In this document: positions 1,780-51,418 of the stretch, in pieces
Numbering within the stretch: position 1 is the first letter of the stretch
How the letters are laid out: each line of letters begins with the position of its first letter
DNA from: Chitinophaga filiformis
Lineage (GTDB): Bacteria > Bacteroidota > Bacteroidia > Chitinophagales > Chitinophagaceae
NCBI RefSeq assembly: GCF_023100805.1
Contig: NZ_CP095855.1
Span: 6,117,001 to 6,181,000 of the forward strand
Length of the DNA stretch: 64,000 bases
Reading direction: 5' to 3'
Program-made: the position numbers and the translations under genes
Notes under the pieces: generated by a model
Seen by the model: the letters and a program-made list of their open reading frames with translations, nothing else
Databases searched by the model: none
What the model was told of the DNA's origin: nothing

Positions 1780-1781
1780 TA

Positions 1782-3158
1782 ATGAATAAAATAAGAATAT
1801 CAAAACATCATTACCAGTTACTTTGTCATCACCTGTTTCCGGGTGATGACAGAGAAGCGGTAGCCCTGGCCCTTTGCAGCAGAAACATACACGGGTCCGA
1901 TCATATTCTTCAGATATTGGAACTTTTTCCAGTTGCATATGAAGATTGCTATGAACGTAAGCCCGATTTGGTGAGATGGCCGACTAACCTGGTGAACCCC
2001 TTGCTGGAAAAAGCGATGGGACGTGGTTATGCCATTCTAAAGATTCACTGCCATCCTGGAGGCGGCGAACGCTTCAGTGAGTTTGATGATGAGTCTGACC
2101 AGACACTTTTCAGCAGTGTGCATGCCTGGTTGGATAGCACGCAACCCCATGCCAGTTGCATCATGCTGCCGGATAAAAGGCTTTTTGGCCGCTTTTTTAC
2201 TGCTGACATGCAAATAGAAACCATTCACCAAATCAGCGTGGCTGGTGACGATCTGCTGTTTTGGAACTATTCAGAGATGCCTGAGCTGGATGAACGTCTT
2301 CAAGCGCGCAACCTGCAAACCTTTGGCAGAGGAACGGTTCAACAATTCAGCCAGATGAGAATTGGTGTTGTTGGAAATTCCGGCACCGGAAGCCCAACTA
2401 TTGAGCAGTTAAAAAGACTAGGCGTAAAGGAGCTGGTGCTGGTAGATCCCGATTATATTGATCACGTCAACCTGAACAGGATACTCGGGGCAACGCTACA
2501 AGATGCCAATCAGCAGGTGCCCAAACCGGAAGTGATGAAACGCGAGATAGAGAAAGTAGGTTTTGGCACAACCGTGACCTGTTTCAATAGTACGGTAGCT
2601 GAACCCGCTGTCATTAATGCCCTGGCCCAATGTGACGTCTTGTTTAGTTGTGTGGATGGTATTGAAGGAAGGCACATCTTGAACCTGATCTCCTCTTGTT
2701 ATCTCATCCCACTATTTGATATGGGTGTAAAACTACAAGCCGACGGTAAAGGTGGAATAACCGGCATCTATGGTACGGTTCACTACATCATTCCTGGAGG
2801 TTCAAGCTTGCTGAGCAGAAAGCAATACACAATGGCTGGACTGCAGGCAGAATCGATCAGGCGTGCAGATCAAGCTGGCATATTAAAGAACCAGTACCTG
2901 GCAGACGTACAGGAATCACAGCCAGCGGTAATTAGTATTAACATGCAGATCGCAGCCATCGCTGTGAACGATTTTCTGGCAAGGATTCACCCGTTTCGCA
3001 ACTTCGATAATGATGAGGTCAATATAATCCGCTATTGGTATTGCGAACTGCTGACAAAGCTGGAATGTGATAATGAACCATGTCCAGTATTCTCCCATTA
3101 CGTCGGACTGGGAGACTGCGAACCATTATTGAACACTCCACAATTTGGTAAACTATGA
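1782..3158 (+). CDS. JAB (JAMM) peptidase - ThiF/E1 adenylyltransferase fusion
   Basis: The 458-residue protein has two domains. The N-terminal half is a JAB/JAMM metallopeptidase with HCHP at 89-92, S99 and D102/D103, fitting the H-x-H-P...S-x-x-D zinc motif. The C-terminal half is a ThiF/E1-type Rossmann domain: GNSGTGS at 198-204, VDPD at 221-224, then N230, N232 and R233. It also has a DVLFSCVDG strand-loop, all typical of ATP-dependent adenylation of a Ubl C-terminus. By family knowledge JAB cleaves the Ubl precursor or conjugate and E1 activates it. It follows the Ubl-E2 gene by 2 bases and overlaps the next start by 4 (ATGA), so the operon is tightly coupled. Several cysteines follow the Rossmann core; which is catalytic is not certain. 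Confidence 0.9.
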   Translation: MNKIRISKHHYQLLCHHLFPGDDREAVALALCSRNIHGSDHILQILELFPVAYEDCYERKPDLVRWPTNLVNPLLEKAMGRGYAILKIHCHPGGGERFSEFDDESDQTLFSSVHAWLDSTQPHASCIMLPDKRLFGRFFTADMQIETIHQISVAGDDLLFWNYSEMPELDERLQARNLQTFGRGTVQQFSQMRIGVVGNSGTGSPTIEQLKRLGVKELVLVDPDYIDHVNLNRILGATLQDANQQVPKPEVMKREIEKVGFGTTVTCFNSTVAEPAVINALAQCDVLFSCVDGIEGRHILNLISSCYLIPLFDMGVKLQADGKGGITGIYGTVHYIIPGGSSLLSRKQYTMAGLQAESIRRADQAGILKNQYLADVQESQPAVISINMQIAAIAVNDFLARIHPFRNFDNDEVNIIRYWYCELLTKLECDNEPCPVFSHYVGLGDCEPLLNTPQFGKL

Positions 3159-9173: not shown

Positions 9174-9554
9174 ATTTAAATTTATATATAATGCATAAGG
9201 TAGCTCTGGATGAGAAGGGCTCCGTGAACAACGAGCTAATGTTGTCCGCATGTCAACCAGTATTTGCGTCAGCAAACCACAACGATTGCAGAAATTCCTT
9301 GGGCGCTGTTAGTACAGGTATCCTCAACAATTCCCATCGGTATCATAGATACAGGTCTAGAACTGCCGGTAAACTCAGTAAATTTAACTCCTAATAGGTC
9401 GAAACAAACTGTAAAAAGTACTCTTAAGCCACAAAATTATTTCCTTTTTCACATTCGACAATTCAACGGGCGAAATGGCTTTGAGGAGTCATTCCACCAG
9501 AACTGTTGCGATGGACCGGTTTTTTGATTTTGATAATACTTACCTTGCTCACAG
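9174..9554. other. Gene-free stretch before the first ligD fragment
   Basis: These 381 bases are AT-rich with several short frames and no recognisable protein. The right end (about 9535-9554) already resembles the ligD sequence but is shifted out of frame, so decay of the gene fragment begins here. Confidence 0.4.
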
Positions 9555-9917
9555 ATAGATTTTACTCAAAGCCGCACCATCGCCTCCCGTTTATGTGATG
9601 AAATACACCAGCTGGTGCCTACTGTCAGTACGCGTAGCGAAAGCAGGTCATCCCGGGGTGATAAATTATATATAGATGCCGGCCAAAATGACTATGCAGA
9701 CACCCTGGCGGCACCTTACTCCATCCGCCCCTACCACCAGCCATTGGTATCCACTCCCCTGGACTGGAAAGAACTGCGCCCAACTTTAGACAGATGGGCG
9801 TTCAATATGGATACTATTGCGTCCAGACTGCGCAGGAAAGGCGATTTATTCAAAGGCGTGCTGGATGGAAAAGTAGCCGCTATCAATACCAGGGCATTAC
9901 TCAAACATTATCTGTAG
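9555..9917 (+). pseudogene. ligD: ligD 3'-end fragment, copy 1
   Basis: From ATAGATTTT at 9555 the frame reads IDFTQSRTIASRLCDEIHQL and on to the stop at 9917. It aligns collinearly with the last 120 residues of the intact LigD at 22085-24163 (the end of its polymerase/primase domain), including YIDAGQNDYADTLAAPYS and LDRWAFNMDTI. It has no ligase domain, no polymerase catalytic motif and no start codon in register. Nucleotide identity to the intact copy is clearly incomplete, with many third-base changes, so it is not a recent duplicate. An opposite-strand DUF4240 remnant follows, as at the other ligD-linked loci. Confidence 0.85.
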
Positions 9918-10009: not shown

Positions 10010-10150
10010 TCACCTTCTGTTCCATGGGGTTCTCTTCACCCTGGAAACAGTCCTTGGCTTTTTATACATGGCGTCGAATAATTTCGGACATACGGCTCTC
10101 ATGTCACGAGGATTATCCATTTGCCAGGCAAATCCAGCAGAGGATATGTT
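10010..10150 (-). pseudogene. DUF4240 3'-end remnant
   Basis: Minus-strand frame ending at a TGA (10010-10012) reads FAWQMDNPRDMRAVCPKLFD then AMYKK. It aligns with the C-terminus of the intact DUF4240 protein at 20968-21567 (FAWQTGNRNDMRSICPQLFD then LMYKKK). Only about 45 codons are left and the upstream part is gone. It lies just past ligD fragment 1, on the opposite strand. Confidence 0.75.
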
Positions 10151-10192
10151 GAGGTTTTTTGCTAATGAGGAGGGCTATTCCACGATGGGTGC

Positions 10193-11032
10193 CTACAAAC
10201 GTCTATGTTTGGTTTTAATTTGCTTTGGCGCCATGACTCTTTCCGGCGGCAACCCCTTCTTTACTCTATTTTCTTTAATGATGGCAGCCATATAAGTCTC
10301 AGATATGTGTTGAAAAGTCGCTGTTGGATTGACGATCATTTGCACGTCGTTGATGTATTTTGCATCATTCCACTCCTTTTCGGGGCGCCACATATTATCA
10401 ACTCTTGCGGTACCTATGGGATCAATTTTATACCAATCCGGAAACTGCACCCAATATACGTTAGCCGGTGTCGTTACCAGGGCTTCTTCGTCGAAACTGA
10501 CAACCGTTTTATTTTTTTTATCATACCAGCCACAACTACCATTGGCTTCAATTGAAAAGTCAACGAATGGAATCGTAATCATGAAGTTTTTTATTGAGCG
10601 AAGCTCCTGCAACCGAATATCCACGTTGTATTTATCGCCCGCCAGATCCAGTACAGTGAGTGCCCCCTGAAGTCTGTTGAAAATAGTTTTACTCACCACC
10701 ACAAAATTTGATCTGTCTTCAAAACTTGCTGCATTGATGGCATTTAAGCGGCGATCATCTGATATCGGTCCTCCCAAAAGCTGCTCGGGCAACCTGACCA
10801 CCGTTTGAAACGATGTCGTCGGCTGATCTATTAGCAGCAATTTATTTTGCAACCGGTCAAACACCATGGCGTATGTACCATTCACTGCATTTGCCCCGTT
10901 AAGACAAACACCACCTTCAACGTTTCCCTGCGGATAAATTCTTTTGCCATGGTGTTCTAAATTGAAAGCCCGGCCATCAATAAACAACTGCCCTATCTTC
11001 GGATCACCAATGTGATTAAGCTCTATTTTCAT
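10193..11032 (-). CDS. Hypothetical protein
   Basis: 279 residues from ATG 11032 (MKIELNHIGDPKIGQLFIDG); an in-frame ATG at 11056 would add 8 residues. The composition is that of a soluble beta-rich globular protein with repeated strand-like segments (AMVFDRLQNKLLLID, NFVVVSKTIFNRLQGALTVL). No signal peptide, TM helix or catalytic motif was recognised. It ends 43 bases from the DUF4240 remnant on the same strand and may once have shared its transcript. The C-terminus is basic (KQIKTKHRR). I do not recognise the family. Confidence 0.65.
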   Translation of the reverse strand: MKIELNHIGDPKIGQLFIDGRAFNLEHHGKRIYPQGNVEGGVCLNGANAVNGTYAMVFDRLQNKLLLIDQPTTSFQTVVRLPEQLLGGPISDDRRLNAINAASFEDRSNFVVVSKTIFNRLQGALTVLDLAGDKYNVDIRLQELRSIKNFMITIPFVDFSIEANGSCGWYDKKNKTVVSFDEEALVTTPANVYWVQFPDWYKIDPIGTARVDNMWRPEKEWNDAKYINDVQMIVNPTATFQHISETYMAAIIKENRVKKGLPPERVMAPKQIKTKHRRL

Positions 11033-12026: not shown

Positions 12027-12443
12027 ATGTCTGCCCCACTTCGTATTGACAAAAAAGCTACAAAAGTAATGGGAGGCGATGAGGCCTTTAAAGATTACTT
12101 AAGTCGGCTGATAAAAATGATCCCCGCTGAAATTGTTGGTCTTTACATGATCGTCACAGGCTTTATTCCGGAAGATGAGCATACCTGGTTGTTAATCGTT
12201 ACCATTATTTGCCTGATCTTTCTTATAATAGTTCGTGTGAAGGCAACCAGTGATAAAGCCAATAATTTACCTCCGCAGCAGTTTCCAATCTTCGTGGCTG
12301 CAATAGCATTTGTACTGTGGGTATATTGGTTAGGAGGCCCATTCAAACACTATGAAGGGGTTCACAAACAATTTGTTGCCTCCGTATTAATTGTTCTGTG
12401 GTCTTTCATAATTCCAGTTTTCTATAAAGGGTCTGTATCGTGA
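12027..12443 (+). CDS. Small integral membrane protein (CHAT module component 1)
   Basis: The 138-residue protein has a short soluble N-terminus with DYLSRLIKMIPAEIVGLYMI, then about four TM helices (around 36-46, 54-71, 89-104 and 117-134). The 'IPAE(I/V)VGLY' motif recurs in small membrane proteins of bacterial conflict operons; the family has no assigned function. Its stop overlaps the next gene by 4 bases, so the two are coupled. It is the first gene of a module ending in CHAT proteases and may anchor or signal from the membrane. Confidence 0.75.
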   Translation: MSAPLRIDKKATKVMGGDEAFKDYLSRLIKMIPAEIVGLYMIVTGFIPEDEHTWLLIVTIICLIFLIIVRVKATSDKANNLPPQQFPIFVAAIAFVLWVYWLGGPFKHYEGVHKQFVASVLIVLWSFIIPVFYKGSVS

Positions 12444-13384
12444 AAAATAAACATGCATTCCAGCTTATTTTATATATCGTCCTGATCTTATCGATACTGC
12501 TAATCGTAAGTGTGCTGCCTGGTATTGATCTGGAAGGACCTATAAGGATCTCTCCCCAAAATGAAGGATTAAGGTCAATACTGATTGTGCTGGGAGGAGG
12601 TGCTATGGGAAGTACATTGCGAGCGATTCTGTCTATGTCGGCAATTATTTATGGTAACATAGATACAGGCACAAGTCTGCCATTCTATTTTCAACGTGCT
12701 TTTACCGGTTTGTCCGCTTCCCTGATCGTGTATTTCATCTTCAAGGGCTTGTTGCTCAGTCCGAACACACCAGCTCAATACATCAATTTTTCGGGTATCC
12801 TGGTCCTGTCTATCATGTCAGGCTTCTTTGCAGATGAATTTCTAAGGCAACTAACCGCTTCGTTGTATCGGTTAGTTAACAAAGATGCCAGGGTAGATGA
12901 GAAAATTAACAATTTGACAATGGCCTTGGGCATCGATATCCTGGATAATTATGACGGGAAGTTCTGTTTTTTTTTAACAGATACTGATGGCAATACTTTA
13001 ATTCCAGCCATGTCCACGAGAAGGTTAACGGTAACCATGAACAGGGAATATATCCTGCATTGGTACCTCAGGCCTAAAACGGAAACGGAAAACCAAGATT
13101 CCATCACCGAAGACCTGATTGTCAGCGGTGGCAAGACAAGTGAAACGGTTACTTTCACCATAGTACCCCATCTGAACGCACAACGCCTAGCACCACGCGA
13201 ACAAACAGTAAGCTTTCCCGTGCACCGACGATCAGAAACCAAGACCATACCTTTTTCAATTACAACAGAAAATGAGCGTCCAGACCTTTGGCTTGAAATT
13301 TTTCAAAAGAACCGCCTCATCAGCGTTATCAACGTTAACCTGAACTTTGAGGAGGCACCTAATTCCAGTACATTGAATCCTTAA
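12440..13384 (+). CDS. Membrane protein with C-terminal beta-rich domain (CHAT module component 2)
   Basis: 314 residues. TM segments lie near 8-26, 43-60, 86-106 and 118-132, including GGGAMGSTLRAIL and YINFSGILVLSIMSGFFADE. From about residue 150 the protein is soluble and beta-rich (KFCFFLTDTDGN, RLTVTMNREYILHWYLRP, TVTFTIVPHLN). The tail looks like an immunoglobulin-like or sensor module, but no family is assigned. It overlaps component 1 by 4 bases and lies 7 bases before the first CHAT gene, which fits a membrane sensor paired with a protease effector. Confidence 0.75.
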   Translation: MKNKHAFQLILYIVLILSILLIVSVLPGIDLEGPIRISPQNEGLRSILIVLGGGAMGSTLRAILSMSAIIYGNIDTGTSLPFYFQRAFTGLSASLIVYFIFKGLLLSPNTPAQYINFSGILVLSIMSGFFADEFLRQLTASLYRLVNKDARVDEKINNLTMALGIDILDNYDGKFCFFLTDTDGNTLIPAMSTRRLTVTMNREYILHWYLRPKTETENQDSITEDLIVSGGKTSETVTFTIVPHLNAQRLAPREQTVSFPVHRRSETKTIPFSITTENERPDLWLEIFQKNRLISVINVNLNFEEAPNSSTLNP

Positions 13385-13391
13385 ATTTTGT

Positions 13392-14648
13392 ATGCATTCC
13401 GGAGCGCCTAAATTAACGATCGATATCGAAGGCAAAGATTGGCTGACCGTAAAGATCAAAGCCGGACGAATGGAATTGCCGGCTATAGAAGTTGATTTTT
13501 CAGACCAACGCATAGGAGAATACTATAATATCTTGTATGATGCGCTTGACAAATTCCTTGAAATCATAGGCGACGAAAAACAGATAAGTATTTCCGATGC
13601 AAACAGAGCTTTGAAGTATCTGAACTCTGCCGGCGCAGGTTTGATGTTCTACCTTTTCGGTAACAGAATCAGTGAAGTACGGGATTTCATGCGAAGAGCT
13701 GTTGAGACATGGAGAATGAGTTCAACAGATGCGTATACTGTGCCGTTTGTGGAAGTAAGATCCCTACAAAACAAATATATTCCGGTTGAATTTTTACCAG
13801 TTTTTGATAGTGCTGCCCCGGCGGCCGCTACCAACTCAAATGACCTGCTACTAATTGCCTCGCGGTTTCTTGGCTTTTCAACCTGTATCAATCGTATCTA
13901 CCACAGACCCTCGCTTCGGTCCCAGGTCAAGACCGATGCAAAAATTGCACAGGACGCCAAAATGCGCGTACGCTTTTTCAAAAACAGAAAGCTTACGCGC
14001 TTGCAGGAGGAGGAAGATTTCCTGAGAAACCACGCCGGTATTGAACTGCTTAGTAAATGGCCGGTTGGCATTGCAGCGCCAGATCAATTTATTAATGAAT
14101 TGGCCGCCTTGATTTGGAATGGCAAGGACATTGCTACGGGCGTGGCTGAACCGCAGGATGATATTCACCATTTCACCTGTCACTGCATTAATGACTATGC
14201 ATTGTCTTCAAACAGCAAATTACATCTTACCTATCCCCACAAGGGCCTAATTTGGACATCAAATAAAGATGTGTATGTTAGCATTGATAGCCTGGCAAAA
14301 GAGTTTGGCCAGCAAAAGAGCCGCGACACCAAAACTTCATATCCCCTGGTGTTCCTGAACGCCTGTAAATCAAATAAACGCAATCCTCTCGGTTTGATGT
14401 CTTTTCCAGACCTGTTTGTGAAACATGGGAACAAAGGCGTAATTGGCACCGAGACAATGATACCAGAGATGTTTGCCGGCGAATTTTCAAGGTGCTTCTA
14501 TGACAAGCTGGTCAATGGCTTTAGCATATCTCAAGCGCTTCATACAAGTCGCTGGTACCTGCTGAAAAGGTTCAACAATCCACTAGGCATATTATATACG
14601 CTCTATGCTGATCCAGATCTGCGCATGGAAAATCATTCTCATGCTTAA
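13392..14648 (+). CDS. CHAT-domain (caspase-like) protease, component 3
   Basis: The 418-residue protein ends in a CHAT domain, a caspase/separase-like cysteine peptidase. The predicted catalytic His is H264 in HFTCHC (260-265) and the Cys is C325 in FLNACKSN (321-328); GNKGVIGTETMIPEMFA and YADPDLR near the end match the family. The N-terminal 240 residues lack TPRs and have no recognised domain. By family knowledge CHAT proteases are effectors in bacterial conflict systems and cleave a target protein once triggered; the target is unknown. It directly follows the two membrane genes and is separated from the TPR half of the module by 194 bases. Confidence 0.88.
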   Translation: MHSGAPKLTIDIEGKDWLTVKIKAGRMELPAIEVDFSDQRIGEYYNILYDALDKFLEIIGDEKQISISDANRALKYLNSAGAGLMFYLFGNRISEVRDFMRRAVETWRMSSTDAYTVPFVEVRSLQNKYIPVEFLPVFDSAAPAAATNSNDLLLIASRFLGFSTCINRIYHRPSLRSQVKTDAKIAQDAKMRVRFFKNRKLTRLQEEEDFLRNHAGIELLSKWPVGIAAPDQFINELAALIWNGKDIATGVAEPQDDIHHFTCHCINDYALSSNSKLHLTYPHKGLIWTSNKDVYVSIDSLAKEFGQQKSRDTKTSYPLVFLNACKSNKRNPLGLMSFPDLFVKHGNKGVIGTETMIPEMFAGEFSRCFYDKLVNGFSISQALHTSRWYLLKRFNNPLGILYTLYADPDLRMENHSHA

Positions 14649-14842
14649 TATTATATTGGAGTCAATGGAATCGTAAGTGAAGTCTGCTAAGATACTGAAA
14701 TAAATTATTGTCAATATAATAGTTTTATTATCGCTTAGGATATGTTATGGATCACTTATAAAAGGGCCATTCATTCAGGGGCAATACCAAGTGGGCTTGT
14801 TTATGATCACAATGATGTATACTCAAATAGAGAGAGACATTT

Positions 14843-15982
14843 ATGGCAAACTTAGATATAGGAACGTTTCGTCTTGATACAGCAAATGAACCTTCATTCA
14901 GTCAGCTAACTCAAGGATCAGAAATAGAAAAGGATGCTGCCGTCCAAAAGATCTATGACCTGGCAAAGACAAAGAACGGAATGGAGCAATGGAACGATTT
15001 TGCCATTGCATTGGGCATCTTAGGTAAAAAGGAAGTCGCCTTGGGCCTTTTTAAAGACCTAATTGAAAGATTTCCAGATCACGATGTACTTCGATATAAC
15101 CTGGCCCTCTCCTATGTTTACTGTGGGATGAATGCTGTAGGTCGATATCATCTGATTCAACTATCCCAGTCAGCAAACGAAAAATCATTCCGGAAGTTCA
15201 GCCGGGAAAGCCTTGAGAAGTTTGAATCTTATTTAGGTATTACAGAAGCCGATGATCGCCTAAAGGATCTGCAAATCTCGTACTTCCGCAAAGCAATACT
15301 TGCGGCTGCACCGGATAGTAACATTTTTTTGTCTCTCGGCAGATTACTTTTCGACAGAATGAATAAGGAGATGGATGATGACTGCGTTTTAGAACTAATT
15401 GCGCTTCTGGAAAGAGGAACTAAAATGTATCCGAGAGATTCTCAGCTCATGGAGATGCTGCTGGCTACCAAACTATGGTACGAACCATATAAAAGCCACC
15501 ACAGTATTGCCGATCAACTCGCTTGCATTTCCCCCTCCTCTCCCTTATTGGTCGAATATCTCAGCAGGAAAAAATGCGATACAATCATGCATTCTAGAAC
15601 AAGCAAAATCTTTAGAGTTCTCGTCGAAGAATATATGAGCGGACAGGAGGAATTCAAACAATATGCACTTAAAGATCTCGCCGCCTTCGTGTTCCTGGAC
15701 CCAACCAATACTGCTTACAGGATTATGTATGCGCTCGCGCTGGCCTGCAACAAGCAGTATGCTGCAGCCTTGAAACAGGTTGCTAAGGCAGAGCAGGAAC
15801 CCCACAAAGATTATGTATATTTTTTTAATGTGTCCCAGATTTTTCACAAGTGTGGTGACAAACAAAAGGCCCTTGATTATGTAGAAAAAGCAGAATCGTT
15901 TGTCGAAACTGAACAGGACAGAACCGATCTTGACAAAGTGATCGCCCTTATCAAAAATGACAGTGAATGGAAAATAGCGTAA
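14843..15982 (+). CDS. TPR-like helical repeat protein, component 4
   Basis: The 379-residue protein is all alpha-helical, with TPR-style repeats visible at WNDFAIALGILGKKEVALGL (about 50-69), VLRYNLALSYVYCGMNAVGR (84-103), and again near 290-365 (ALALACNKQYAAALKQVAKA; FHKCGDKQKALDYVEKAESF). TPR units bind partner proteins, so it is probably an adaptor or sensor for the CHAT protease that follows. Its end overlaps the start of that gene by 16 bases. The 194-base gap upstream may hold a second promoter. No enzyme motif is seen. Confidence 0.8.
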   Translation: MANLDIGTFRLDTANEPSFSQLTQGSEIEKDAAVQKIYDLAKTKNGMEQWNDFAIALGILGKKEVALGLFKDLIERFPDHDVLRYNLALSYVYCGMNAVGRYHLIQLSQSANEKSFRKFSRESLEKFESYLGITEADDRLKDLQISYFRKAILAAAPDSNIFLSLGRLLFDRMNKEMDDDCVLELIALLERGTKMYPRDSQLMEMLLATKLWYEPYKSHHSIADQLACISPSSPLLVEYLSRKKCDTIMHSRTSKIFRVLVEEYMSGQEEFKQYALKDLAAFVFLDPTNTAYRIMYALALACNKQYAAALKQVAKAEQEPHKDYVYFFNVSQIFHKCGDKQKALDYVEKAESFVETEQDRTDLDKVIALIKNDSEWKIA

Positions 15983-18900
15983 CACAACAGTATGTAAAAT
16001 TCGTGGAGGCACTAGTACACACAAAAACTGTTGCCACTATGAAAGACCTTATCCACTCGGCTACCCACCTGAAACCGGCCACACTGCATAATATGCTAAA
16101 CCAACAGAGAAAAGAGGAGAAGGAAGCTGGAAATGAGGAGAAATATAATCTGTTGACCTTCATACATGAGATAGTAAATCGGGAACACAGGAATGACGAA
16201 TTGGAAACAATTACGGATACACTTACCCTATATAAGGCAGCGATAAAACAGCGGAATATCATAAGGTTGAAAAGCCTTCTAATAGCACATAAGAACTTTG
16301 TAAACCTCGACTTGATACAGCTGACTATGGGTGGCAGTAGGGAGAACCAAATTCCCTTGCAGGAGGATATTATGATCATGTTTGTTGCGTCGTTGATTAT
16401 AGCCAACATAGAGTTTAAAATGATCGCCTGCTTATTATGGGTTCGGTTTCTGTTTCATAAGGGGCTTTTCAAAAAAGGAAAAAAACGAATAGACATTGCC
16501 AAAAAACAAATGTCGGATTCGCAGAAGGATCAGTTACAACAAACCCTGCTCGCTCTTGAAATTGCCTATGCTCGGGAACGAAAAGAGTTGCGAACAGCAC
16601 TTCAACTGATGGAAAATATGCGTCTTCTTTTGAAACAGGAAGATACCGGTAATGCTCTTTTTGAACTACTGTATTCCATGGCAAGAATTGCCAGAGAATT
16701 GGGGCAATACGAAAAATCAATCGGGCTGCTTGATGAACTGTTTGAATTGCTAAACATAGCCATGCAACAACCTGACATCAACGTGGATCAATTTATTTTG
16801 GGTACATGTAGGTTACGCGGGCTTGTGCTGGAGGACATTGGCCGTGGCGACCTGGCACAAACAGATTATCAACAGGCATACAACATATCCATAAAGATGG
16901 GCGATAAACACGAACAATTTGTAAACCTGACAAATATTGCTATTTCTTATGTTAAGCTGCACCGGAAACAAGAAAGCCTGTTCCGTCTTCAACAGTTATT
17001 ACAGACAGTGAGAGAGTGGGGCGATCCTATCACAATTGCATCTACCCACAATAATATCGGATCCATTCTTCAAAGCATGGAACGCTATACAGAAGCTCTT
17101 TCACACTATTATGAGGCTCTTGAAATAAAGGTTGACTCCCCATACAAGTTTGGGGAAGCAGTTGCATCGTTGGGCATAGCCGATTGTTATTTGGCCATGA
17201 ACAACCCCGACCTTTATCGCGTGTTTCACAGCTATGCCTTTGTGCCAATACTTCAAACTGGTGATGTAGGCCTAATGGCGACTTACGCAATTGGAAGGGC
17301 TGCGCATTACACAGACGAATCGGAACAGGATCAGAACAGGAAAGATCTTATGCTCGCCTTGAATATTGCCAAGTCGCTAGACCAAGTCGTTTCGGTCGCC
17401 AGACTGATTCCCTGGCTTTGCCAAGTGTATGAAAGAACAAACAAACTGGATGATGCTATTGCATTGTGTCATTCTTTTCTGGAAGAGCATCCCAATCTTA
17501 CTACTCATTCAGTTTTTTTCTATAGCATTTTAGCCACCTATGCCAGACTTCTGCTGGTTCAAGAGGCGCCGATCAGGCATCTTTTTGACAAACTGATGCA
17601 CACGGTTACACATATCAATAAAAATATAGAGGAGACTATTTTCGACAAGCATCGGGGAGAAATGGTTGGTCAATCCATTCTTCTGTACAATACAATTTTC
17701 CGGATATTATTGGAGTATAAGGGAGACGAAGTACTGATAAATGAAAAAAGCATAGCCATTTATTGTTTTAATTTGCATGAACTGGCTAAGTCGAGGACAT
17801 TTCTGAGCGACCTTTCTGTTAGTCGGCTCACTTTACCGGAGAATGTGCCGGAAGCACTTGGCAACAAAGAGCAGGAACTAATAGCCCTTCAATTGAGCTA
17901 TCAGCAAATGGAGAATGCTTACTCTGAAGCATACCGACTACAACGGCTTCAAGAACTGCGTATGGAACTGTTTGCCATCCGGGATGAGATCAAACTTTTT
18001 GCTCCAGATTATGTACGCGCCAGGGCGGGACTTCCCTACCAATATGAGGAAGCACAGGCATTTCTTGATCGCGAACCGCACGTGGCCTTTATATCCTTTT
18101 TTTGTGACACAGAAAACACGACTGTATTTGTGGTGCTTGCAGAAGAACCGGAACCCCGGGTATTCCGATATGCAGTTGGATCGGATGAAATTGAAAAGGT
18201 TGTGAAACAGATGCAGCGTGCATTCAACGGAGCGCCGTTCGAATTTCCCCCTTATCCTCCTATTCTTCCCGATCGCCCTTTTGAAAGAGAACTGGATTTT
18301 TTGGATCAACTCGGAGCATCCCTGCTCGGATTCACACATATCCTCACTGATGTGGAAGTGTTATGTATTGCCGCTCATGGCGTACTGCACCAGGTACCAT
18401 TTCACGCCATACGGCTAATCGATGGCCGGTATTTGGCCGAACAGTTTGCCGTAGTTTATACTGCTAGTATAAGCACTACCCTGCTGCAACAGACCGGGCA
18501 AAAGAGAAGCACTAGGCCGAATACTGTGTATGTTGCCTGTGTGCCCTCAAAGGAGGACAAACGGCCTGATCTCTTTGAGCAGGACCTTGACCTTTTTGAT
18601 CCGCATATCTGGCCGAAAGTTTCAACCGATATAGGAATAGCTGCTTCGCGCGAAAAGGTATACAGCGAAATATCCGGTCACAATGTCATTCATTTCTCGT
18701 GCCATGGCTATTTCGATAACACACAGGGTCATCAATCGGGATTGATTCTTTCAAATGGAATCGAACTGCCTACCCGCTACGGGCAAAACATGTCCTTTTC
18801 TGAACGAAACCAATTTGCCCTTACCGCCAAAGACCTCCTCAGTACCCATATCGATGCCGATCTGATAACGCTTAACGCTTGCTCTACAGCTTTGCAGGAA

Positions 18901-19173
18901 AACCGGAACCACGGCGACGAATGGGATGGATTTATCCGTTGTTTATTGCTGGCGGGCGCCTCATCGGTGTTGTCAACCATGTGGAATGTGGATCAGGCTT
19001 CTTCAGCAGGATTTTTGAAAAATTTTTACGCAGTGTGGAAGGGAGGCGCTAGCGAAGTAGAAAAATGGAAAGCACTGTCGTATGCACAAAGGTCGTATAT
19101 TTATTCTGAGAACATCCATTTACGGCATCCCTACCACTGGGCTGCATTCACACTTTCCGGAACCTGGCATTAA
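15967..19173 (+). CDS. TPR-CHAT protease, component 5
   Basis: The 1068-residue protein carries a long array of TPR-type helical pairs (about 140-560; for example STHNNIGSILQSMERYTEAL) and a C-terminal CHAT domain (about 700-1068). The CHAT catalytic pair is H913 in HFSCHG and C972 in TLNACST, with LAGASSVLSTMWNVDQ and PYHWAAFTLSG typical of the family. It is the same general layout as TPR-CHAT (Craspase-like) and many conflict-system effectors. Substrate and trigger are unknown. It overlaps the upstream TPR gene and is followed, with no gap, by a small gene. Two CHAT proteases within one module is unusual. Confidence 0.9.
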   Translation: MENSVTQQYVKFVEALVHTKTVATMKDLIHSATHLKPATLHNMLNQQRKEEKEAGNEEKYNLLTFIHEIVNREHRNDELETITDTLTLYKAAIKQRNIIRLKSLLIAHKNFVNLDLIQLTMGGSRENQIPLQEDIMIMFVASLIIANIEFKMIACLLWVRFLFHKGLFKKGKKRIDIAKKQMSDSQKDQLQQTLLALEIAYARERKELRTALQLMENMRLLLKQEDTGNALFELLYSMARIARELGQYEKSIGLLDELFELLNIAMQQPDINVDQFILGTCRLRGLVLEDIGRGDLAQTDYQQAYNISIKMGDKHEQFVNLTNIAISYVKLHRKQESLFRLQQLLQTVREWGDPITIASTHNNIGSILQSMERYTEALSHYYEALEIKVDSPYKFGEAVASLGIADCYLAMNNPDLYRVFHSYAFVPILQTGDVGLMATYAIGRAAHYTDESEQDQNRKDLMLALNIAKSLDQVVSVARLIPWLCQVYERTNKLDDAIALCHSFLEEHPNLTTHSVFFYSILATYARLLLVQEAPIRHLFDKLMHTVTHINKNIEETIFDKHRGEMVGQSILLYNTIFRILLEYKGDEVLINEKSIAIYCFNLHELAKSRTFLSDLSVSRLTLPENVPEALGNKEQELIALQLSYQQMENAYSEAYRLQRLQELRMELFAIRDEIKLFAPDYVRARAGLPYQYEEAQAFLDREPHVAFISFFCDTENTTVFVVLAEEPEPRVFRYAVGSDEIEKVVKQMQRAFNGAPFEFPPYPPILPDRPFERELDFLDQLGASLLGFTHILTDVEVLCIAAHGVLHQVPFHAIRLIDGRYLAEQFAVVYTASISTTLLQQTGQKRSTRPNTVYVACVPSKEDKRPDLFEQDLDLFDPHIWPKVSTDIGIAASREKVYSEISGHNVIHFSCHGYFDNTQGHQSGLILSNGIELPTRYGQNMSFSERNQFALTAKDLLSTHIDADLITLNACSTALQENRNHGDEWDGFIRCLLLAGASSVLSTMWNVDQASSAGFLKNFYAVWKGGASEVEKWKALSYAQRSYIYSENIHLRHPYHWAAFTLSGTWH

Positions 19174-19719
19174 ATGATGAACGATTACAGCTTGATACAA
19201 CAACAAGACACTGAAACCTGCATTCTGACTATCAGCCACCTCACCGACAGGTTGCGGCAAGGGCTTTCTGAACAAGAAAAAGGCTGCATCACTAGCCAGG
19301 AGGAGGCAATCAATTTATTGAATGCCCTCGCAGGCGCACCCATAACAATTGTTGACCATGAGATACTGGAAGATATTTTGGATGAAAAACGACTGAAACT
19401 CCTGTTGACGGCACTATGGGAAGATGAGGCAATCAGACCGGAATTGAAAATACTTCTCGATCGTCCTCCTTACTATGCGCAACGATCTTTTGAAGAGTTG
19501 AAAACAGTAGCAGTTGTCTTGGGCTGCCTAGTTGCCTGGCTGCAGACGAAAGTCCATTTCCATATTAAACGCGAAAACGGCAAAACCGAATTTGAATTTC
19601 AGATACTGAAACACAAAACCAGCGATTCTATTTTGCAAAAAATAATAACGGTCATCCAGGAGGTTGCAGGGCGTAAGAAATTGCCGAATGAAAAAGATCA
19701 ATCAACCGAGCATGATTGA
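19174..19719 (+). CDS. Small alpha/beta protein closing the CHAT module, component 6
   Basis: 181 residues, starting at ATG 19174 immediately after the TPR-CHAT stop (a second ATG is at 19177). The first half is helical; the second half has VVLGCLVAWLQTKVHFHIKR followed by a beta-strand/helix ending. This resembles the small effector-associated 'constant component' proteins seen beside CHAT/caspase effectors, but the match is by eye. It is probably part of the signalling chain rather than an effector: no catalytic residues are visible. It ends about 55 bases before ligD fragment 2. Confidence 0.65.
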   Translation: MMNDYSLIQQQDTETCILTISHLTDRLRQGLSEQEKGCITSQEEAINLLNALAGAPITIVDHEILEDILDEKRLKLLLTALWEDEAIRPELKILLDRPPYYAQRSFEELKTVAVVLGCLVAWLQTKVHFHIKRENGKTEFEFQILKHKTSDSILQKIITVIQEVAGRKKLPNEKDQSTEHD

Positions 19720-19775
19720 TCCAGTGAGACGTCAATGAGACCACCTAACAATCTTCTTTACCCACTTATCGTTAA

Positions 19776-19900
19776 CTGGTGCCTGACATCAGTACGCGTA
19801 ATGAAAGCAAGAACGCCCGCCAGGATAAGGTCTATATTGACGCCGGCCAAAATGACTATGCCGATAGACTGGCGCCCCCCTACTCTATCAGACCTTACGC
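19776..19900 (+). pseudogene. ligD: ligD fragment, copy 2
   Basis: The frame reads LVPDISTRNESKNARQDK then VYIDAGQNDYADRLAPPY, matching LigD (intact gene at 22085) at the end of its polymerase domain. The homology stops sharply at about 19900. It lacks both the upstream part and the final 60 residues of LigD. Silent and missense differences show it is not a recent copy of either other ligD segment. Confidence 0.85.
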
Positions 19901-21794: not shown

Positions 21795-22091
21795 ATGGAG
21801 CAGATGAGCATGGAAGGGCTGGAAGTGATCTCCATTAATTATGAAGACCCTACCCTTCCGAAGTTGGTTAGGGAGTTTCGTCCCGCTGTATATCTGGATG
21901 GTCAGGACTATTGTTGCCTGCTGGGTCCGGATCCCCAGGAGGGCATTTTCGGCTGCGGCCACAACCGCCAGGATGCCATTAACGACTGGATACAACATTT
22001 TAATGAACGAATCAGCAAACCGGCTGCCAATGATAAAGTGGCAACAGAAATTATTGATTCACTTTCCATTTCAAAGGGTGATGTATGGTAG
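21795..22091 (+). CDS. Small protein coupled to ligD
   Basis: 98 residues with plausible globular sequence: VISINYEDPTLPKLVREF, AVYLDGQDYCCLLGPDP, EGIFGCGHNRQDAINDWIQH. The stop overlaps the ligD start by 7 bases, so it is very probably translated with ligD. No family is recognised. An alternative start is the ATG at 21807. A helper role for LigD is only suggested by the coupling. Confidence 0.65.
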   Translation: MEQMSMEGLEVISINYEDPTLPKLVREFRPAVYLDGQDYCCLLGPDPQEGIFGCGHNRQDAINDWIQHFNERISKPAANDKVATEIIDSLSISKGDVW

Positions 22092-24163
22092 TGGCCAAAA
22101 AAAGTGCTGGCAAGCGGAAAGTTGCGATGCCGAAAGGCATTGAGCCAATGCTATGTACGCTGATCGCCACACCCATTGACGATCCCGATTACATTTACGA
22201 AGTCAAATTCGACGGTTATCGTATCATTTCCTATGTACAAACAGACGACATTCGGCTAGGCAGCCGCGGTGGAAAGGACTATACCAGTAGATATCCGTTG
22301 ATTGTTGAGGCCTTGCGCAAGATTGGATATCAGGTGGTGTTGGACGGTGAAGTGGTGGTCTTTAATGAGGATGGGGTACCGGATTTTGATGCCTTACAAT
22401 CCTATAATGGTCACACCACTCCTATTTCGTACTGTCTATTTGATTTACTATGGCTTGATGGTAGGGATTTAATGCAGTTGCCACTTATGGAAAGGAAAGC
22501 TAAGCTGAGAGATCTTATTGCCGGCATCGAAGGCCTCGTTTACAGCGAATCTTTCGATGATGGTCCTGGCTTGTATGACCTCATGATTAAAAATGGCATC
22601 GAAGGTATCGTCGCCAAACGCAAAGGCAGTAAGTATCTACCCGGCAACCGTGGTTACGACTGGTTGAAGGTGCCAGTTAAAATAAAACAGGAATTTGTGA
22701 TTGGTGCTTATGCGGAGTCAGACACCAAACGCGCCTTCAAATCCCTGTTATTCGGCGCCTACAATGATGAAAAAAAGCTCGAATGGATCGGACGCTCCGG
22801 GGGTGGCTTTAAAGAAAGGGAGATGCCAGCTATTCTCGCAAGGCTCCAACAGCTGGAACAAAAGCGAAGTCCGTTTGTCAACCCGATCCTTGACACAAAG
22901 GGGGCCAGGATTCACTATCTAAAGCCTACCCTAGTGGCAAATTTCGAATTCTCAGGATGGACAAAGTCCGGCCGTATCCGCAAGCCCGCCACTTTTCTGG
23001 CATTTCGCGAAGATAAAGGTCCCAAGGAGGTGATACGGGAAGTACCCCAACAGGTGCACCGCAACACAACCTCTTCGTCTCGCAAGTCGCCCATACCAGA
23101 TATTAAACCGATACTGCAGCAGCGCCTGAAACGCGGCAAAGGTGGCGTGGGCAAATATTTAAATAAAGACAGCAATTGGAAAAAGGTAGATGCAGAACAA
23201 AAGGGCGCCACATGGATGCCGTTTGAAATGGAGCAGTGCACTATCCAGGTGCATAACATTGAACGCGAGCTATGGGAGGGTATCCCAAAAGCAAAGCTGC
23301 TGATCTATTATAATGAAATGGCACCGCTGATGTTACCCTATCTGCGAGACCGTCCTCAATCCTTGCACCTTAAGCTCAAAAACGCGGGCGCATCGCGCGA
23401 CTTCATAAAGGACATGGAAGACCGGCAGCCAGACTGCGCGACCGTTTTTACCGACATTAGGCGGAACAGGAAAGAAGGAAAACGGGACCAGATTGACTAC
23501 CTGGTCATTAACAATGCTGAGACACTGATTTACGCCTGCGATCTGGGTATTGTAGATGTAAATCCATGGGCATCCCACTGGCAAACGCCCGATCATCCGG
23601 ATCAGCTATGGATAGACCTGGATCCCACTTCTGTGGCAGGTAAAACGAGAAGTAATCCGTATCAAAGCGAAGATGAGGGTTTTAAAAAAGCTATCGAGAT
23701 TGCGCGTGCAGCAAAGGAGGTACTAGATAAAAGGAAAATAAAAGGGTTTCTAAAAACTTCGGGAAAGACAGGCATCCATATCTACCTGCCGTGCACGCAA
23801 ATAGATTTTACCCAAAGCCGTATAATTGCATCACATCTATGTGATGAAATACATGAACTGGTCCCTGACATCAGCACACGTAACGAAAGTAAAAATGCGC
23901 GGGGCAATAAAGTCTATATCGATGCTGGCCAAAATGACTATGCAGATACACTGGCAGCACCCTACTCTATCAGGCCTTACCACCAGCCGTTAATATCCAC
24001 CCCGCTGGACTGGAAGGAATTGCGCCCCAGTTTAGACCGATGGGCATTCAATATGGAGACAATTCACGCCAGGCTAAGCAAGAAAGGAGATTTATTCAAA
24101 GGCGTTCTGGACCGGAAATTAGCCGTCGTTAACACCAGATTGTTGCTCAAACATTATCCCTAG
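22085..24163 (+). CDS. ligD: ATP-dependent DNA ligase LigD (ligase-polymerase, no phosphoesterase)
   Basis: 692 residues. The N-terminal ATP-dependent ligase domain has the nucleotidyl lysine K41 in KFDGYR (motif I), LDGEVVVF, EGIVAKRKGS and WLKVPVKIK (motif V). A C-terminal primase-polymerase (AEP-type) domain follows from about residue 385, with LWIDLDP (catalytic acids), KTSGKTGIHIYLP and IRPY. It joins DNA ends in bacterial non-homologous end joining, normally with Ku; no ku gene is visible in the window. The N-terminal phosphoesterase domain found in many LigD proteins is absent. Its 3' end is duplicated as fragments at 9555-9917 and 19776-19900. It is coupled to the small upstream gene by a 7-base overlap. 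Confidence 0.93.
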   Translation: MVVAKKSAGKRKVAMPKGIEPMLCTLIATPIDDPDYIYEVKFDGYRIISYVQTDDIRLGSRGGKDYTSRYPLIVEALRKIGYQVVLDGEVVVFNEDGVPDFDALQSYNGHTTPISYCLFDLLWLDGRDLMQLPLMERKAKLRDLIAGIEGLVYSESFDDGPGLYDLMIKNGIEGIVAKRKGSKYLPGNRGYDWLKVPVKIKQEFVIGAYAESDTKRAFKSLLFGAYNDEKKLEWIGRSGGGFKEREMPAILARLQQLEQKRSPFVNPILDTKGARIHYLKPTLVANFEFSGWTKSGRIRKPATFLAFREDKGPKEVIREVPQQVHRNTTSSSRKSPIPDIKPILQQRLKRGKGGVGKYLNKDSNWKKVDAEQKGATWMPFEMEQCTIQVHNIERELWEGIPKAKLLIYYNEMAPLMLPYLRDRPQSLHLKLKNAGASRDFIKDMEDRQPDCATVFTDIRRNRKEGKRDQIDYLVINNAETLIYACDLGIVDVNPWASHWQTPDHPDQLWIDLDPTSVAGKTRSNPYQSEDEGFKKAIEIARAAKEVLDKRKIKGFLKTSGKTGIHIYLPCTQIDFTQSRIIASHLCDEIHELVPDISTRNESKNARGNKVYIDAGQNDYADTLAAPYSIRPYHQPLISTPLDWKELRPSLDRWAFNMETIHARLSKKGDLFKGVLDRKLAVVNTRLLLKHYP

Positions 24164-24473: not shown

Positions 24474-24687
24474 GACGCCAAATTACTAATTTTTTTAGCA
24501 TCTTAATAGAGCAGTACAAACTGGTGATATATTTTGATGCACCTTCTTCTATCACTATAGCTTTTACTTTCCATGAAACAAATGCGTATTCACCAACTGT
24601 CCCACCACTTTTGGTAACAAAATTAACTTTCTGTCATACTGGAAGGGCACAACTCCAGCAGACGGTATATCAGTCTATAAAAATCAA

Positions 24688-24975
24688 TACTACGCTTGAT
24701 GCCTATCACGATCAGGAATTGGAGAGACATTCCAAGGCTTATTGGGAGATGACCTTGTAGCCCTATGTCAATGGCAAATCTGCTATTTCGAGAAGCGTTG
24801 AGTCATAAGATACAACGTTGCCTAAACCAATCACTTTATAATCCGAATCTTCAATGCCTTGAGTTGAACCTGTAAACTCCCACATTCCATCATCTTCGTG
24901 ATGAAACACGTTCAGTATTGGTTCTGCTCTTTGGAATACCCACTTGGTAATAATAACCGCAGTATTTGCTTATTC
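24688..24975 (-). pseudogene. Decayed immunity-like gene, copy 1
   Basis: The minus strand reads ILNVFHHEDDGMWEFTGST then QGIEDSDYKVIGLGNVVSYD and ADLPLT before an in-frame TAG, with further stops after. This matches a common Bacteroidota protein motif (VFHDEDG-x-WQF...ADLPLG) found near toxin genes. There is no start codon. The whole 280-base stretch is repeated in the same direction at 26408-26690. Confidence 0.7.
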
Positions 24976-26407: not shown

Positions 26408-26690
26408 ATACTACTCTTGATGCCTGTCCCGATCAGGAATTGGAGACAATTTCCAAGGATCGCTCGGTGATGATCTTACTGCCCTATGCCCTAACGGTAA
26501 GTCTGCTACTTCATAAATTCCGGGATCAATAATAACCAATTCCAATCAGCGTCTTCTACTGCCTGGGTGCCTCCTGTAAATTCCCAAGCTCCATCTTCCT
26601 CGTGATGAAACACATTTAATATAGGTTTACCTTTGTTGGTGACAAATCGTGTCATAAACACAAGCGTAATTGGTTTATCGTTAAAAGTCT
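26408..26690 (-). pseudogene. Decayed immunity-like gene, copy 2
   Basis: The minus strand reads MTRFVTNKGKPILNVFHHEE then DGAWEFTGGTQAVEDADW, then shifts one frame and continues IIDPGIYEVADLPLGHRA and VRSSPSDPWKLSPI to a stop. It matches copy 1 over about 280 bases in the same orientation (both contain VFHHE-D-G and ADLPL). A single-base frameshift near AATTGG breaks it, and stops lie just upstream of the possible start. Confidence 0.7.
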
Positions 26691-28550: not shown

Positions 28551-31500
28551 TTAAGGTGTTGGTGGTGTTGGTGGCGTCGGCCGATTTGGTGGATTTGATG
28601 ATGGAGGATCATAGTAAATTACTCGTCCAGGCTTGCCGGTAGCTCTTTCATACTTTTTTATTTGTGATGCGCCCTTTGCGCGTCCAGACGGCGTATTCGG
28701 CTTGTATTCAAGTGGATTTCCACCTGGGGTAACGACATCTGGTACAACTGTTTGCCCAGTAAGGGGATCTATTAATCGTGGTTCCGATTGCCAATTTGGT
28801 TTAGCTTTCACTTTGTTAGCGAGCTCTGCATGCTTCAGGCTTCCATATCTCGCTTTGCTTGCTGTAGCCGGATTATTCATTCCCCTCAAGGTGGGGGCTG
28901 AAGTTGGCGGAGCTTCTACAGTTGGGGCTGTTGCCGCCGGAGCTTGACCTATTCCTTTTGCAGCCCCTTTCAATGCACCGAGTCCTCTTGATGCGCCTTC
29001 CGTCACTAATGCAAGTGACGCTTGTCCTGCTGCTTTACCCACAACTTTCCCAGCACCATAGCTGCCTTCATTTACCACTGTCCGAACATTGTCGATTGCA
29101 TTATAGGCAGAACTCATAACGCCTAATGGGTCTACTAATCTTATAGCTATATTCCGGACTGTATATTGGCTTTTTAAAGTTTCAATTGGGTGAGTAACCG
29201 CATTAACAATACCTGAAAAATAGCCGGTAAAGCCTGCTTTTACGCCCTCTAAAAAACCTGGTCCGCCAGGACCTGGAATATCTCCCAACACATCATTATA
29301 TTTAACCGGATTGTCATAATTGGAAGCGTATGGACTCCAGTTTTCCATTTCATCTGTCTTCGGATCCATTTGCAGCCACCTTCCGATTTGGGGATCCAAT
29401 GTCCGGAATTGAGCCTCGTACTCATTAATATCGAGGTCGCCATTGAATTCAATACCGTTGTATTTTTTCCGGTTGGTATAATAGTCATCACCTTTCAGCG
29501 CATGACTACTAATGCCAGCCATTGTCAAGCCATACGGATAGTAGTGCGTTTCTTCCAGTAGTGGCCCACTGTTGTGGATGACTGAAAGATTATCGAAATA
29601 AACGTCCTGGCCATTCTCGTTATTTACGTATATATAAATGAACCCCGTCCGTTTGATAACGATCTGTCCTGTTGCCAGGGTCTGCAGGATATCCGGGGAA
29701 TTCTGCACCTGACGTACCGCCGAATTTTCACTAACCAGGTTGAACTGGTCGTCAAAGGCTGCGTAGGTCAGGTATGCTTTAGGCCTGTCCGATAGGTTCT
29801 GACTTGGATCATTGTTTTTGACATCGTTGTATAAACTGGATGTCATTGCAGTGATAGGGCTATTAGCACCTGATCCCTGATGTATGCCATCTATCACCCC
29901 ACTACTATTAAAAGACGATAATAAGGCGTTCAGCATGTCGGTGGCCGTTGCATTGTAACTGGTTGACCCACCACTTTTATAAAATGCTTTTACACCGGCC
30001 TGAATTGTATCTCCTGCCATCACACGCAGCACAATCGATGGCCCTATTTTCTGACCATTCTGGGCGTTTAGTTTGGCCACAGAACTATTCAGGCTTGTGG
30101 TAGGATCGGCCGGATAACCACTTGGTTTAGCCGAACGAGTATTGTCGATATTACTGAACAGCAGGTTTTCAGTTTGCGTATACTGACTTTCCATTGTAGC
30201 CATGTACCTACTTGTGTCCATACTGGTGCCCAATACCATACGGGTATTGCCGATCGGATCACGTACAAAATAATCCAAAGTATACTTCACTTCGCCGTTG
30301 CTGTTATGTTCAAGCCGTACGCGGCCTTCATCATGCGTAAACTGCTGAAGGGTATCATTTTGGTAAGTAAACGCATCCATGTAGTCTGTCACCGTCTGTT
30401 TGGCCGGGGTTACGGAAACATCATTTACAGTTTTACGAAGGCGTTTACTGTCGGCAGTATACACAAAGCTGATGGTTCCTTTACCGGGGACAGAGATATA
30501 TTCCGGCAGGTTCAGCTCATTATAGCGAATACTATCAATACCCTTGTTTTTGTCGCGGGTAAGGTTATTATTGGCGTCATACCAATAATCACGAGAGGTA
30601 TCGTTGGTAGTTTCATTAAAATCGCCTCGCTTACTTCCGGTTTCGTTCTTATAGTCCTTAACGTAGTTTAGCCTATTAGATGATGCGAAATATCCAAACT
30701 CAAGACTATCTATGGTCTTTATTACCGGCCCATCGAGCCCTTTCTGAACCATGGAGTTTATATTTCCGTTTTCGTCGTAGCGGAAAGTGGAACTGAAATC
30801 GACAAGATTGCTTTGCCATGTAATACCTCCCTGATTCTGCTGGTTAAATGAAGAGCCTGTAAGTCTTCCGCTATTGTCATAGTAAAAGGCCATGGCACGT
30901 GCAACACCATCTCCCCTACTCTTCCATTTGGTGCCGCTCATTAGGCCACTGAAGGATTTAACATTAAAACCTTTGTCATAACTATTCACCAGTCCAAACC
31001 AGTTAGCAGTACTGCCAGGCGTATTGACAAACGCTTCGTTGATCGTGGTGATATCACCATTCAAGGTATAGCCATAGTCAAAAGTTTCTAGTTGCGTGTT
31101 GATACCTGTTACACTTACCTTTTTCTGACTGATTTGGTTTAGTTCATTATAGGTAGTGTACGCTATGGTTCTCTGTGTGGCGGCATCGTTGTTGAACCTT
31201 ATTTTTACGGAATCGGGTTTGCCTGCCAGGTTCAGGTGATAAAGATATAAGACAGGCTGTGGTGCACTGGCCTGCGCATTTGTGTGCGATACATATTTAC
31301 TTAATAATGTGCCTTTAAAATTATATAGGGAGCTGGTTACTGTGGTAGCACCGCTGAGATTCTGCTCCACAGTCTGGCTTAGTTTTCGGCGCGGCGTATA
31401 GTACAACGTACTGGTGAGCCATTGGTCAGTACCCAACACGCGGTTTTTTATTCCGGTGGCCAAGCTTGTGTTGATAGGATTAAACGAACTATAGGCGTCT

Positions 31501-35804: not shown

Positions 35805-35821
35805 ATGGTTTGGCGTTAACG

Positions 35822-50704: not shown

Positions 50705-51418
50705 TCAAAAAACATCTAAAGCAGATAATCGCTGTTTCAGTCCTTCTAACACTTGTTCATTCACCTTTGCCAGCGTTTCCAGTCGCCCAATATCTTTCTT
50801 CAGTTGTCCTATCTCGTACCTTTTTACCTGGGCCTGATCGTCGAGTTCATTCTCATCCTCGCTTCTGTCATCCGAAAGTGCGATCATCAACTGGATATCG
50901 ATTTTGTCCGGCAGGTCTATGCCGGCTTCTAAGAACTGTTTTGTTGTATCATTGTCTATTGTAAGGGCCGCCTGTTTTAATAAGTACTTGATGCAGGCCC
51001 GGGCGCCTCTATCCACGTCCATAATTTGGGTGTCAAATTGCTGTTCTGGAGTGAGATTAGTTTTTCCCTCGGCCAGTGTCGCCCTTTTAAATTCGGCGAC
51101 CGTTGAATAGAACGGATCCCTATTGTCTGGTGATAATTTTTCCAACACCTCGAGAAGATGCTCATAGCTTCTAAGTGGCTGTTTGCCTTCGGGGAAAGAC
51201 CATCGTTGCTTCCATAGCTTCAATATAACATCGAAGCATTCTACACGTGCATCCTCTTTTTTCTGTTCTGTGGCCGCCGTTTCAATTAATGCCATCTTTT
51301 CCGCCAGGTAGTGGGCCATCCATCGGGAAAGGATATCAGTGCTATCTTCCAGACCCAATTGATCAACAAGGATTTTACCCAAGTTGATAATCTGCTGTTG
51401 TTGTAGTAAGTTTTCCAT
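50705..51418 (-). CDS. Helical partner of the Avs-like gene
   Basis: 237 residues from ATG 51418 (MENLLQQQQIINLGKILVDQ). This start lies inside the end of the Avs-like gene (overlap 44 bases); the longer in-frame leader to 51547 is not credible. The protein is entirely helical, with coiled-coil ends (VKRYEIGQLKKDIGRLETLA) and no catalytic motif. Overlapping starts point to tight translational coupling, so it is likely a required partner, inhibitor or structural subunit of the large NTPase. I do not recognise the family. Confidence 0.7.
   Translation of the reverse strand: MENLLQQQQIINLGKILVDQLGLEDSTDILSRWMAHYLAEKMALIETAATEQKKEDARVECFDVILKLWKQRWSFPEGKQPLRSYEHLLEVLEKLSPDNRDPFYSTVAEFKRATLAEGKTNLTPEQQFDTQIMDVDRGARACIKYLLKQAALTIDNDTTKQFLEAGIDLPDKIDIQLMIALSDDRSEDENELDDQAQVKRYEIGQLKKDIGRLETLAKVNEQVLEGLKQRLSALDVF

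Follow-up and report, generated by a model that had tools for sequence, protein, structure and literature searches.

The locus

We analysed 64,000 nucleotides of Chitinophaga filiformis DNA (assembly GCF_023100805.1, contig NZ_CP095855.1, positions 6,117,001 to 6,181,000 of the forward strand), a stretch that is called the window throughout, and in it a run of six genes, here named A to F. As listed in Table 1, they encode two CHAT proteases (C and E), a TPR protein (D), two proteins with hydrophobic regions (A and B) and a small protein of mixed structure (F). The original prediction took the six genes as a candidate for one undescribed system, in which one CHAT protease activates the other with membrane sensing at the top. 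Our analysis rather favours two independent, horizontally acquired protease modules, A-B-C (module 1) and D-E-F (module 2), which adjoin within a defence island, where ligD marks the site of insertion, and would act as proposed below; we consider this reading fairly probable.

All six open reading frames (ORFs) are present at exactly the predicted coordinates, and the tight packing was confirmed as well. A overlaps B, D overlaps E, E and F abut, and B and C are 7 bp apart, so that the stretch between C and D is the one real gap. Scans for promoter and terminator consensus sequences gave numbers close to chance (24 against 19.0 expected, standard deviation 3.4, and 7 against 8.2 expected) and were uninformative as to a shared transcript. 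Among the window proteins compared with Pfam, A, B and F had no match above cut-off. The host genome, assembled as one 8.26-Mb contig, contains three CHAT domains, namely those of C and E and one elsewhere. This third domain (L002, G000:C1:36892-37386) belongs to an 869-aa open frame and shows weak similarity to C (2e-8).

Table 1. Genes of the two modules and ligD-related sequences around them (window positions).
Feature	Position	Strand	Description
Gene A	12027-12443	+	ORF, 138 aa, four hydrophobic stretches; possible membrane effector; module 1
Gene B	12440-13384	+	ORF, GTG start; transmembrane (TM) region at the N-terminus, beta domain at the C-terminus; may tether C to the membrane; module 1
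Gene C	13392-14648	+	ORF, 418-aa CHAT protease, H264/C325, Pfam CHAT; module 1
Intermodule gap	14649-14842	+	194 bp, between C and D
Gene D	14843-15982	+	ORF, TPR protein, Pfam TPR matches; module 2
Gene E	15967-19173	+	ORF, TPR-CHAT protease, H913/C972; module 2
Gene F	19174-19719	+	Putative divergent EACC1-type protein with a helical N-terminal part, a hydrophobic helix and a beta hairpin; module 2
ligD 3' fragment, left bracket	9537-9836	+	77% DNA identity to 23783-24082
ligD 3' fragment, right bracket	19774-19898	+	82% DNA identity to 23856-23980; 55 bp after F
Intact ligD-like ORF	22085-24163	+	ORF, 692 aa; own-genome matches

The D-E-F triad

E matched Pfam CHAT with E=4.6e-44 and, like D, gave TPR matches in Pfam; its catalytic pair H913/C972 is invariant in all 11 aligned E-family proteins. 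A profile of the C-terminal half of E and of that of a relative on a plasmid of Streptomyces NBC_01483 (L010) was scanned against 84,980 species genomes. The scan could find only loci with one of two short patterns, and the best 80 of 162 confirmed stretches were kept, giving 78 loci. Among those kept, the ten closest loci, with E identities of 32-42%, come from Scytonema hyalinum (L013), Nocardia (L014), Saccharopolyspora (L015), Nonomuraea (L017), Actinomadura (L020) and Streptomyces (L016, L018, L019, L021 and L022). With L010 as the eleventh locus, the triad is found in one Scytonema, nine actinobacteria and a Streptomyces plasmid.

By tblastn, F was found 3' of E in all ten closest loci (eight with window F, ten with the F piece of L010), and a match to the D profile lies directly 5' of E in these ten loci and L010 (11 of 11), although several of the D matches are partial. 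The D, E and F profiles match the same 11 of 81 loci (L010 and L013-L022), the exception being a weak D match in L082 (5e-5). The window and four loci had supplied the D profile, and the window and ten loci the F profile; matches at these loci arise by construction, and the initial detection is that by tblastn.

None of A, B and C was found by tblastn at the ten loci or at L010 within the DNA covered, which extends up to 10 kb past the E match and falls short of this in L013, L014 and L020; at the ten loci, matches of C and of the CHAT protein of L006, a relative of C described below, went unreported when weaker than 1e-6. The C profile had a sole match at the triad loci, to the CHAT domain of E itself in L018 (E=1e-5). 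When the E profile was run on viral contigs, eight stretches were obtained and none was confirmed, and a search of plasmids with D found no relative. On the Streptomyces plasmid, the ORF at L010:9116-10267, similar in length to D, was rejected as its counterpart because it is in the wrong frame, the TPR ORF being 10119-10526. The F of the same plasmid (L010:13490-14089) is split over two reading frames.

F had been described as a small alpha/beta protein. The description holds in so far as F is small and has helices and strands, but it leaves out the helical N-terminal part, the hydrophobic helix and the beta hairpin; in the predicted structure (predicted local distance difference test score 67), N-terminal helices are followed by a helix, two strands and a helix. 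We compared the F family (11 rows) with nine EACC1 proteins by hhalign, which gave a probability of 87.7, E=3.4e-6 and a score of 41.5. This score was reached by none of 100 column shuffles (best 14.6) and none of 100 local shuffles (best 30.0), and the reversed profile scored 17.2. The Pfam EACC1 model, run on 11 genomes, matched five of the 11 F genes at positions that coincide with those of the independently placed F genes. One match was above the cut-off (the L015 genome, 25.4 against 23.6 bits) and four were below it (E 0.002 to 0.009); among 14 control genomes, the model gave a below-cut-off match in one. When the Nocardia F (L014) was taken alone, EACC1 came second (E=0.012) to the 2TM SLATT model (0.0055). 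For the hydrophobic helix, the best 19-residue hydropathy means lie between 1.49 and 2.43 (F family) and between 1.15 and 2.04 (EACC1 set). Of the 12 genomes searched, 11 have a single copy of F and the remaining one, G667, which carries a locus of the B-C type, has none. Judged by these profile comparisons, F is, at the level of the family, a divergent EACC1-type component, in line with the predicted kinship to the conflict systems of Aravind and colleagues.

In Scytonema, F (L013:6632-7816) continues into a C-terminal CHAT domain (Pfam E=1.4e-10; PADLOC 'chat' 1.7e-14), in which both the His and the Cys motif are present. This domain is slightly nearer to the C family (E=5e-4) than to the E family (E=0.012), both similarities being weak. 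A second CHAT on the Scytonema F makes a relay of CHAT proteases plausible within D-E-F rather than between the two halves of the window locus, and as a single case, from which no rule follows, the fusion hints at a second protease as a possible target of E.

The A-B-C module

C matched Pfam CHAT with E=2.3e-10. Full-length relatives were found at three loci of actinobacteria: L112, L128 (S. natalensis) and, on a Streptomyces plasmid, L006, whose protein is 27% identical to C over 385 aa. The H264/C325 dyad is kept in all four aligned C-family proteins, and with the invariant pair of E this supports the prediction of two CHAT proteases with complete catalytic pairs. Elsewhere, 26 pattern stretches in genome contigs and 134 in viral contigs were obtained with C, of which none was confirmed, and a search of plasmids with B found no relative. 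Matches to the C profile in G531 (101 residues, E=1.3e-12) and G562 (99 residues) were set aside as generic CHAT ends.

At all three loci, the gene order is a TM protein with a C-terminal beta domain, then the CHAT protein, then Pepco; the latter was identified in L006 with Pfam PF24393 (E=8.3e-18) and in L112 and L128 by tblastn with the L006 protein. The C-terminal domain of B is homologous to the gene upstream of CHAT at these loci, with hhalign E=6.6e-5 for the three-row version, which was run without a control. The shuffle control belongs to the two-row version, where E=6e-4 and a score of 34.1 was obtained against 20.2 for the best of 100 shuffles. The window shares with the TM-beta/CHAT/Pepco operons two homologous components, C and the C-terminal domain of B, in the same order. 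It differs in having gene A in front and in lacking Pepco, since by Pfam none of the six genes is Pepco and C is followed by the gap of 194 bp. Literature searches on Pepco as a domain returned no relevant paper, and no published description of such operons was found.

Hydropathy analysis located four hydrophobic stretches in A and a hydrophobic region at the N-terminus of B; a link to the membrane, as predicted, is likely. A was compared, apart from Pfam, only with the collected loci; we do not call it a split-off TM part of the L006 and L112 proteins, because it lacks similarity to that part. Behind the CHAT-Pepco pair of the L006 plasmid, four annotated hypothetical genes (L006:13769-19789) were noted, two of which weakly match tyrosine recombinases (E=0.0012 and 0.0033); these are possibly mobility genes carrying this type of module.

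Occurrence of the two modules

D and F are absent at L006, L112 and L128, and matches to E are limited to the CHAT gene itself, which reflects generic CHAT similarity (E=0.001 in L112). Hence all 11 D-E-F loci lack A, B and C within the DNA covered, all three loci with a full-length C lack D and F, and the two halves, 12027-14648 and 14843-19719, lie apart at every relative found, an outcome that had been named with the original prediction as refuting it; for this reason the single six-gene unit fails. Both modules are present in S. natalensis, where F is on contig C29 and the relative of C on another, C62. Only in the window were the two found to adjoin.

Both modules are rare. Within the family, C and D each occur in one of 147 genomes, that of the window. 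The C profile matched one of 395 genomes of the phylum (E<=1e-12) and, at 1e-15, two of 246 genomes of the Nocardia phylum, one of them over only 99 residues. At 1e-30 the E profile matched two of the 395 genomes, one weakly (L012, G367, E=6e-32), and the F profile matched one of 214 genomes of the Scytonema phylum and one of 246 in the Nocardia class, which was in both cases the centre genome. Such scattered occurrence, together with a case on a plasmid, argues for horizontal transfer.

The six genes had been described as bracketed by ligD fragments. Fragments are indeed present on both sides, but the left one is separated from A by 2.1 kb that include other ORFs. Two more genomes from the genus were searched, and the ligD relatives there reach only 28-39% identity. 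As judged from their sequences, the ligD pieces look like scars of repeated insertion at ligD.

Proposed action and comparison with known systems

We propose that F, through its hydrophobic helix, is most likely located in or on the membrane, where it could serve as sensor or substrate. D and the TPR half of E would form a scaffold that either senses the intruder or keeps the protease inactive. Once triggered, the CHAT domain of E would cleave a partner, most likely F or D, and growth stop or death of the infected cell would follow; the choice of F or D as substrate is the weakest step of this proposal. In Scytonema, where F has its own CHAT domain, the signal may be passed on to a second protease. 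Module 1, in turn, may be a membrane-anchored CHAT protease in which B would serve as the tether of C; once active, C probably frees or activates A, the putative membrane effector.

A bolder version would make D-E-F an undescribed immune system common to very distant bacteria: its CHAT protease, scaffolded by TPRs, would be wired to a membrane sensor of the EACC1 type and, in some lineages, directly to a second CHAT protease on that sensor, as a bacterial initiator/executioner pair; in the window, C may hold the executioner role. We put this forward as a speculation that is rather unlikely to be right in full.

One of the closest counterparts found is 'System 4' of Kaur et al. (2020; PMC7159879), a membrane-associated conflict system of two genes, EACC1 and a caspase. 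There, the membrane component is proposed to sense and to activate the caspase, and autoproteolysis then frees the effectors. With F as an EACC1 relative, D-E-F resembles this system in that an EACC1-type component adjoins a protease of the caspase superfamily, and in the membrane sensing and proteolytic activation proposed there. Gene order and architecture differ, however. In the order given there, EACC1 is 5' and the protease 3', whereas F lies 3' of E in the window, L010 and L013-L022. The partner of EACC1, as described in that text, has an N-terminal caspase and a variable C-terminal domain, whereas the CHAT domain of E is C-terminal behind the TPRs and no variable domain is present; finally, D-E-F has a separate TPR gene. 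The word 'CHAT' is absent from the main text of PMC7159879, and as a whole word from the 2021 follow-up, PMC8195603.

The TPR-CHAT architecture of E is shared with Craspase (Csx29, the TPR-CHAT protein of type III-E CRISPR), and the E family profile matches solved TPR-CHAT/Csx29 chains (best 7zoq_A, E=6e-6). E is nonetheless not of the Csx29 family, scoring 33.3 bits (E=2.4e-8) with the NCBIfam Csx29 model against a cut-off of 300, and it is partnered by a TPR protein and one that resembles EACC1. The CATRA caspase ternary systems, named in PMC8195603, are by name three-part caspase systems, like the triad. No CATRA or TPR-S model was among the Pfam matches of the window proteins, in a Pfam copy that should include CATRA models, and TPR-S was weakly matched by the D (E=0.0037) and E (E=0.024) of Scytonema. 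A TPR part belongs to the CATRA systems too. The anti-phage system Borvo (CHAT), named in PMC10952713, likewise has a CHAT protease; C and E do not match a PADLOC CHAT model, in contrast to the CHAT domain of the Scytonema F. In PMC10907252, a CHAT domain occurs in a hypervariable target protein with TIR, which is a different set-up. Judged by titles and the start of abstracts, with subscription papers and preprints outside the scope, no description of the D-E-F triad was found in the literature. Within that scope, the claim of an undescribed system can be kept for this part, but not for the six genes as one unit, and as a whole the original prediction is partly supported.

An idea that was hard to test has in this way given place to two modules that are small and testable. 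As a compact triad, D-E-F is retained across very distant bacteria, and it would tie an EACC1 membrane component to the TPR-CHAT proteases, which are best known from Craspase. The Scytonema fusion offers a natural relay of two proteases, and should D-E-F prove to confer phage protection, it would provide a simple bacterial model of a caspase-like cascade with a membrane trigger.

Alternative explanations

Several observations weigh against two independent modules with a membrane-linked, EACC1-like F. Six of the 11 F genes, including that of the window, fail E 0.01 with the Pfam EACC1 model, window F has no Pfam EACC1 match at all, and its helix is moderately hydrophobic (best 19-residue mean 1.49). 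D is difficult to follow: by tblastn, window D matched only one of the ten loci and the TPR piece of L010 five, and the D matches are partial in L010, L016, L019, L021 and L022 and split across two frames in L017. The weakest of them could partly reflect general TPR similarity. PADLOC has no system matching the six genes and gave a generic TPR match for E alone. Finally, the two halves are on the same strand and only 194 bp apart, so that they could have a joint transcript or function in this genome.

The lack of a PADLOC match would also suit developmental or stress signalling, in which the modules are proteases of the cell's own regulation and not immune systems. CHAT and TPR proteins also occur in the ordinary signalling of complex bacteria, and the relatives are mostly actinobacteria with one cyanobacterium, organisms that have complex life cycles. 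Very patchy occurrence, the defence genes in the surroundings and the kinship with EACC1 speak against this explanation, and we regard it as rather improbable.

A single six-gene system, with a C-E cascade and membrane sensing on top, draws on the common strand, the tight packing and the short gap. In addition, homology links the C family to the E family (hhalign E=1.7e-10), and the CHAT domain fused to the Scytonema F leans, if slightly, towards C. Against it, no second case of the halves together was found, every locus having a single half, and in S. natalensis they are on different contigs. Comparison of the loci lends no support to a C-E cascade, and the fusion, a single case, supports a relay of two CHAT domains inside one module. 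This explanation is therefore distinctly unlikely in our view.

That the modules are decaying mobile debris, recent non-functional passengers among ligD fragments, could be argued from those fragments, from the missing Pepco gene of module 1 and from the F of L010 split between two frames, but with all six window ORFs intact and tightly spaced, and catalytic residues retained at 26-42% identity, we hold it to be very improbable.

Other features of the window

Two further loci favour a defence role of the two modules, without proving it. A 2083-aa protein encoded at 51375-57626 (-) matched PADLOC Avs3a over residues 5-2075 (1507 bits) and Pfam NPHP3_N, and is apparently an intact anti-phage NTPase of the Avs3 type. 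At 634-1779 (+), a protein with multi-ubiquitin and E2 parts is encoded, followed at 1782-3158 (+) by a ThiF (E1) protein, for which the JAB match is borderline; PADLOC E1-E2 models match this second protein, and by these domain assignments 634-3158 is a ubiquitin-like conjugation operon of the defence kind.

A group II intron lies at 59156-61002 (-), where two Rfam intron matches (60885-61002 and 59156-59236) enclose an ORF for a reverse transcriptase/maturase (59160-60563). In the region 28551-39082 (-), a 2417-aa DUF6443 protein adjoins a 1086-aa protein with no Pfam match at E<=1e-5, and two proteins of 377 and 468 aa, also without match, come after this pair. A FecR protein is encoded in the window as well; like the DUF6443 protein, it is in keeping with a host from the Bacteroidota. 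Lastly, 24687-24923 and 26408-26627 contain two diverged pairs of direct repeats, 81 and 84 nt long with 80% and 73% identity and spaced about 1.7 kb apart, which suggests a duplicated gene.

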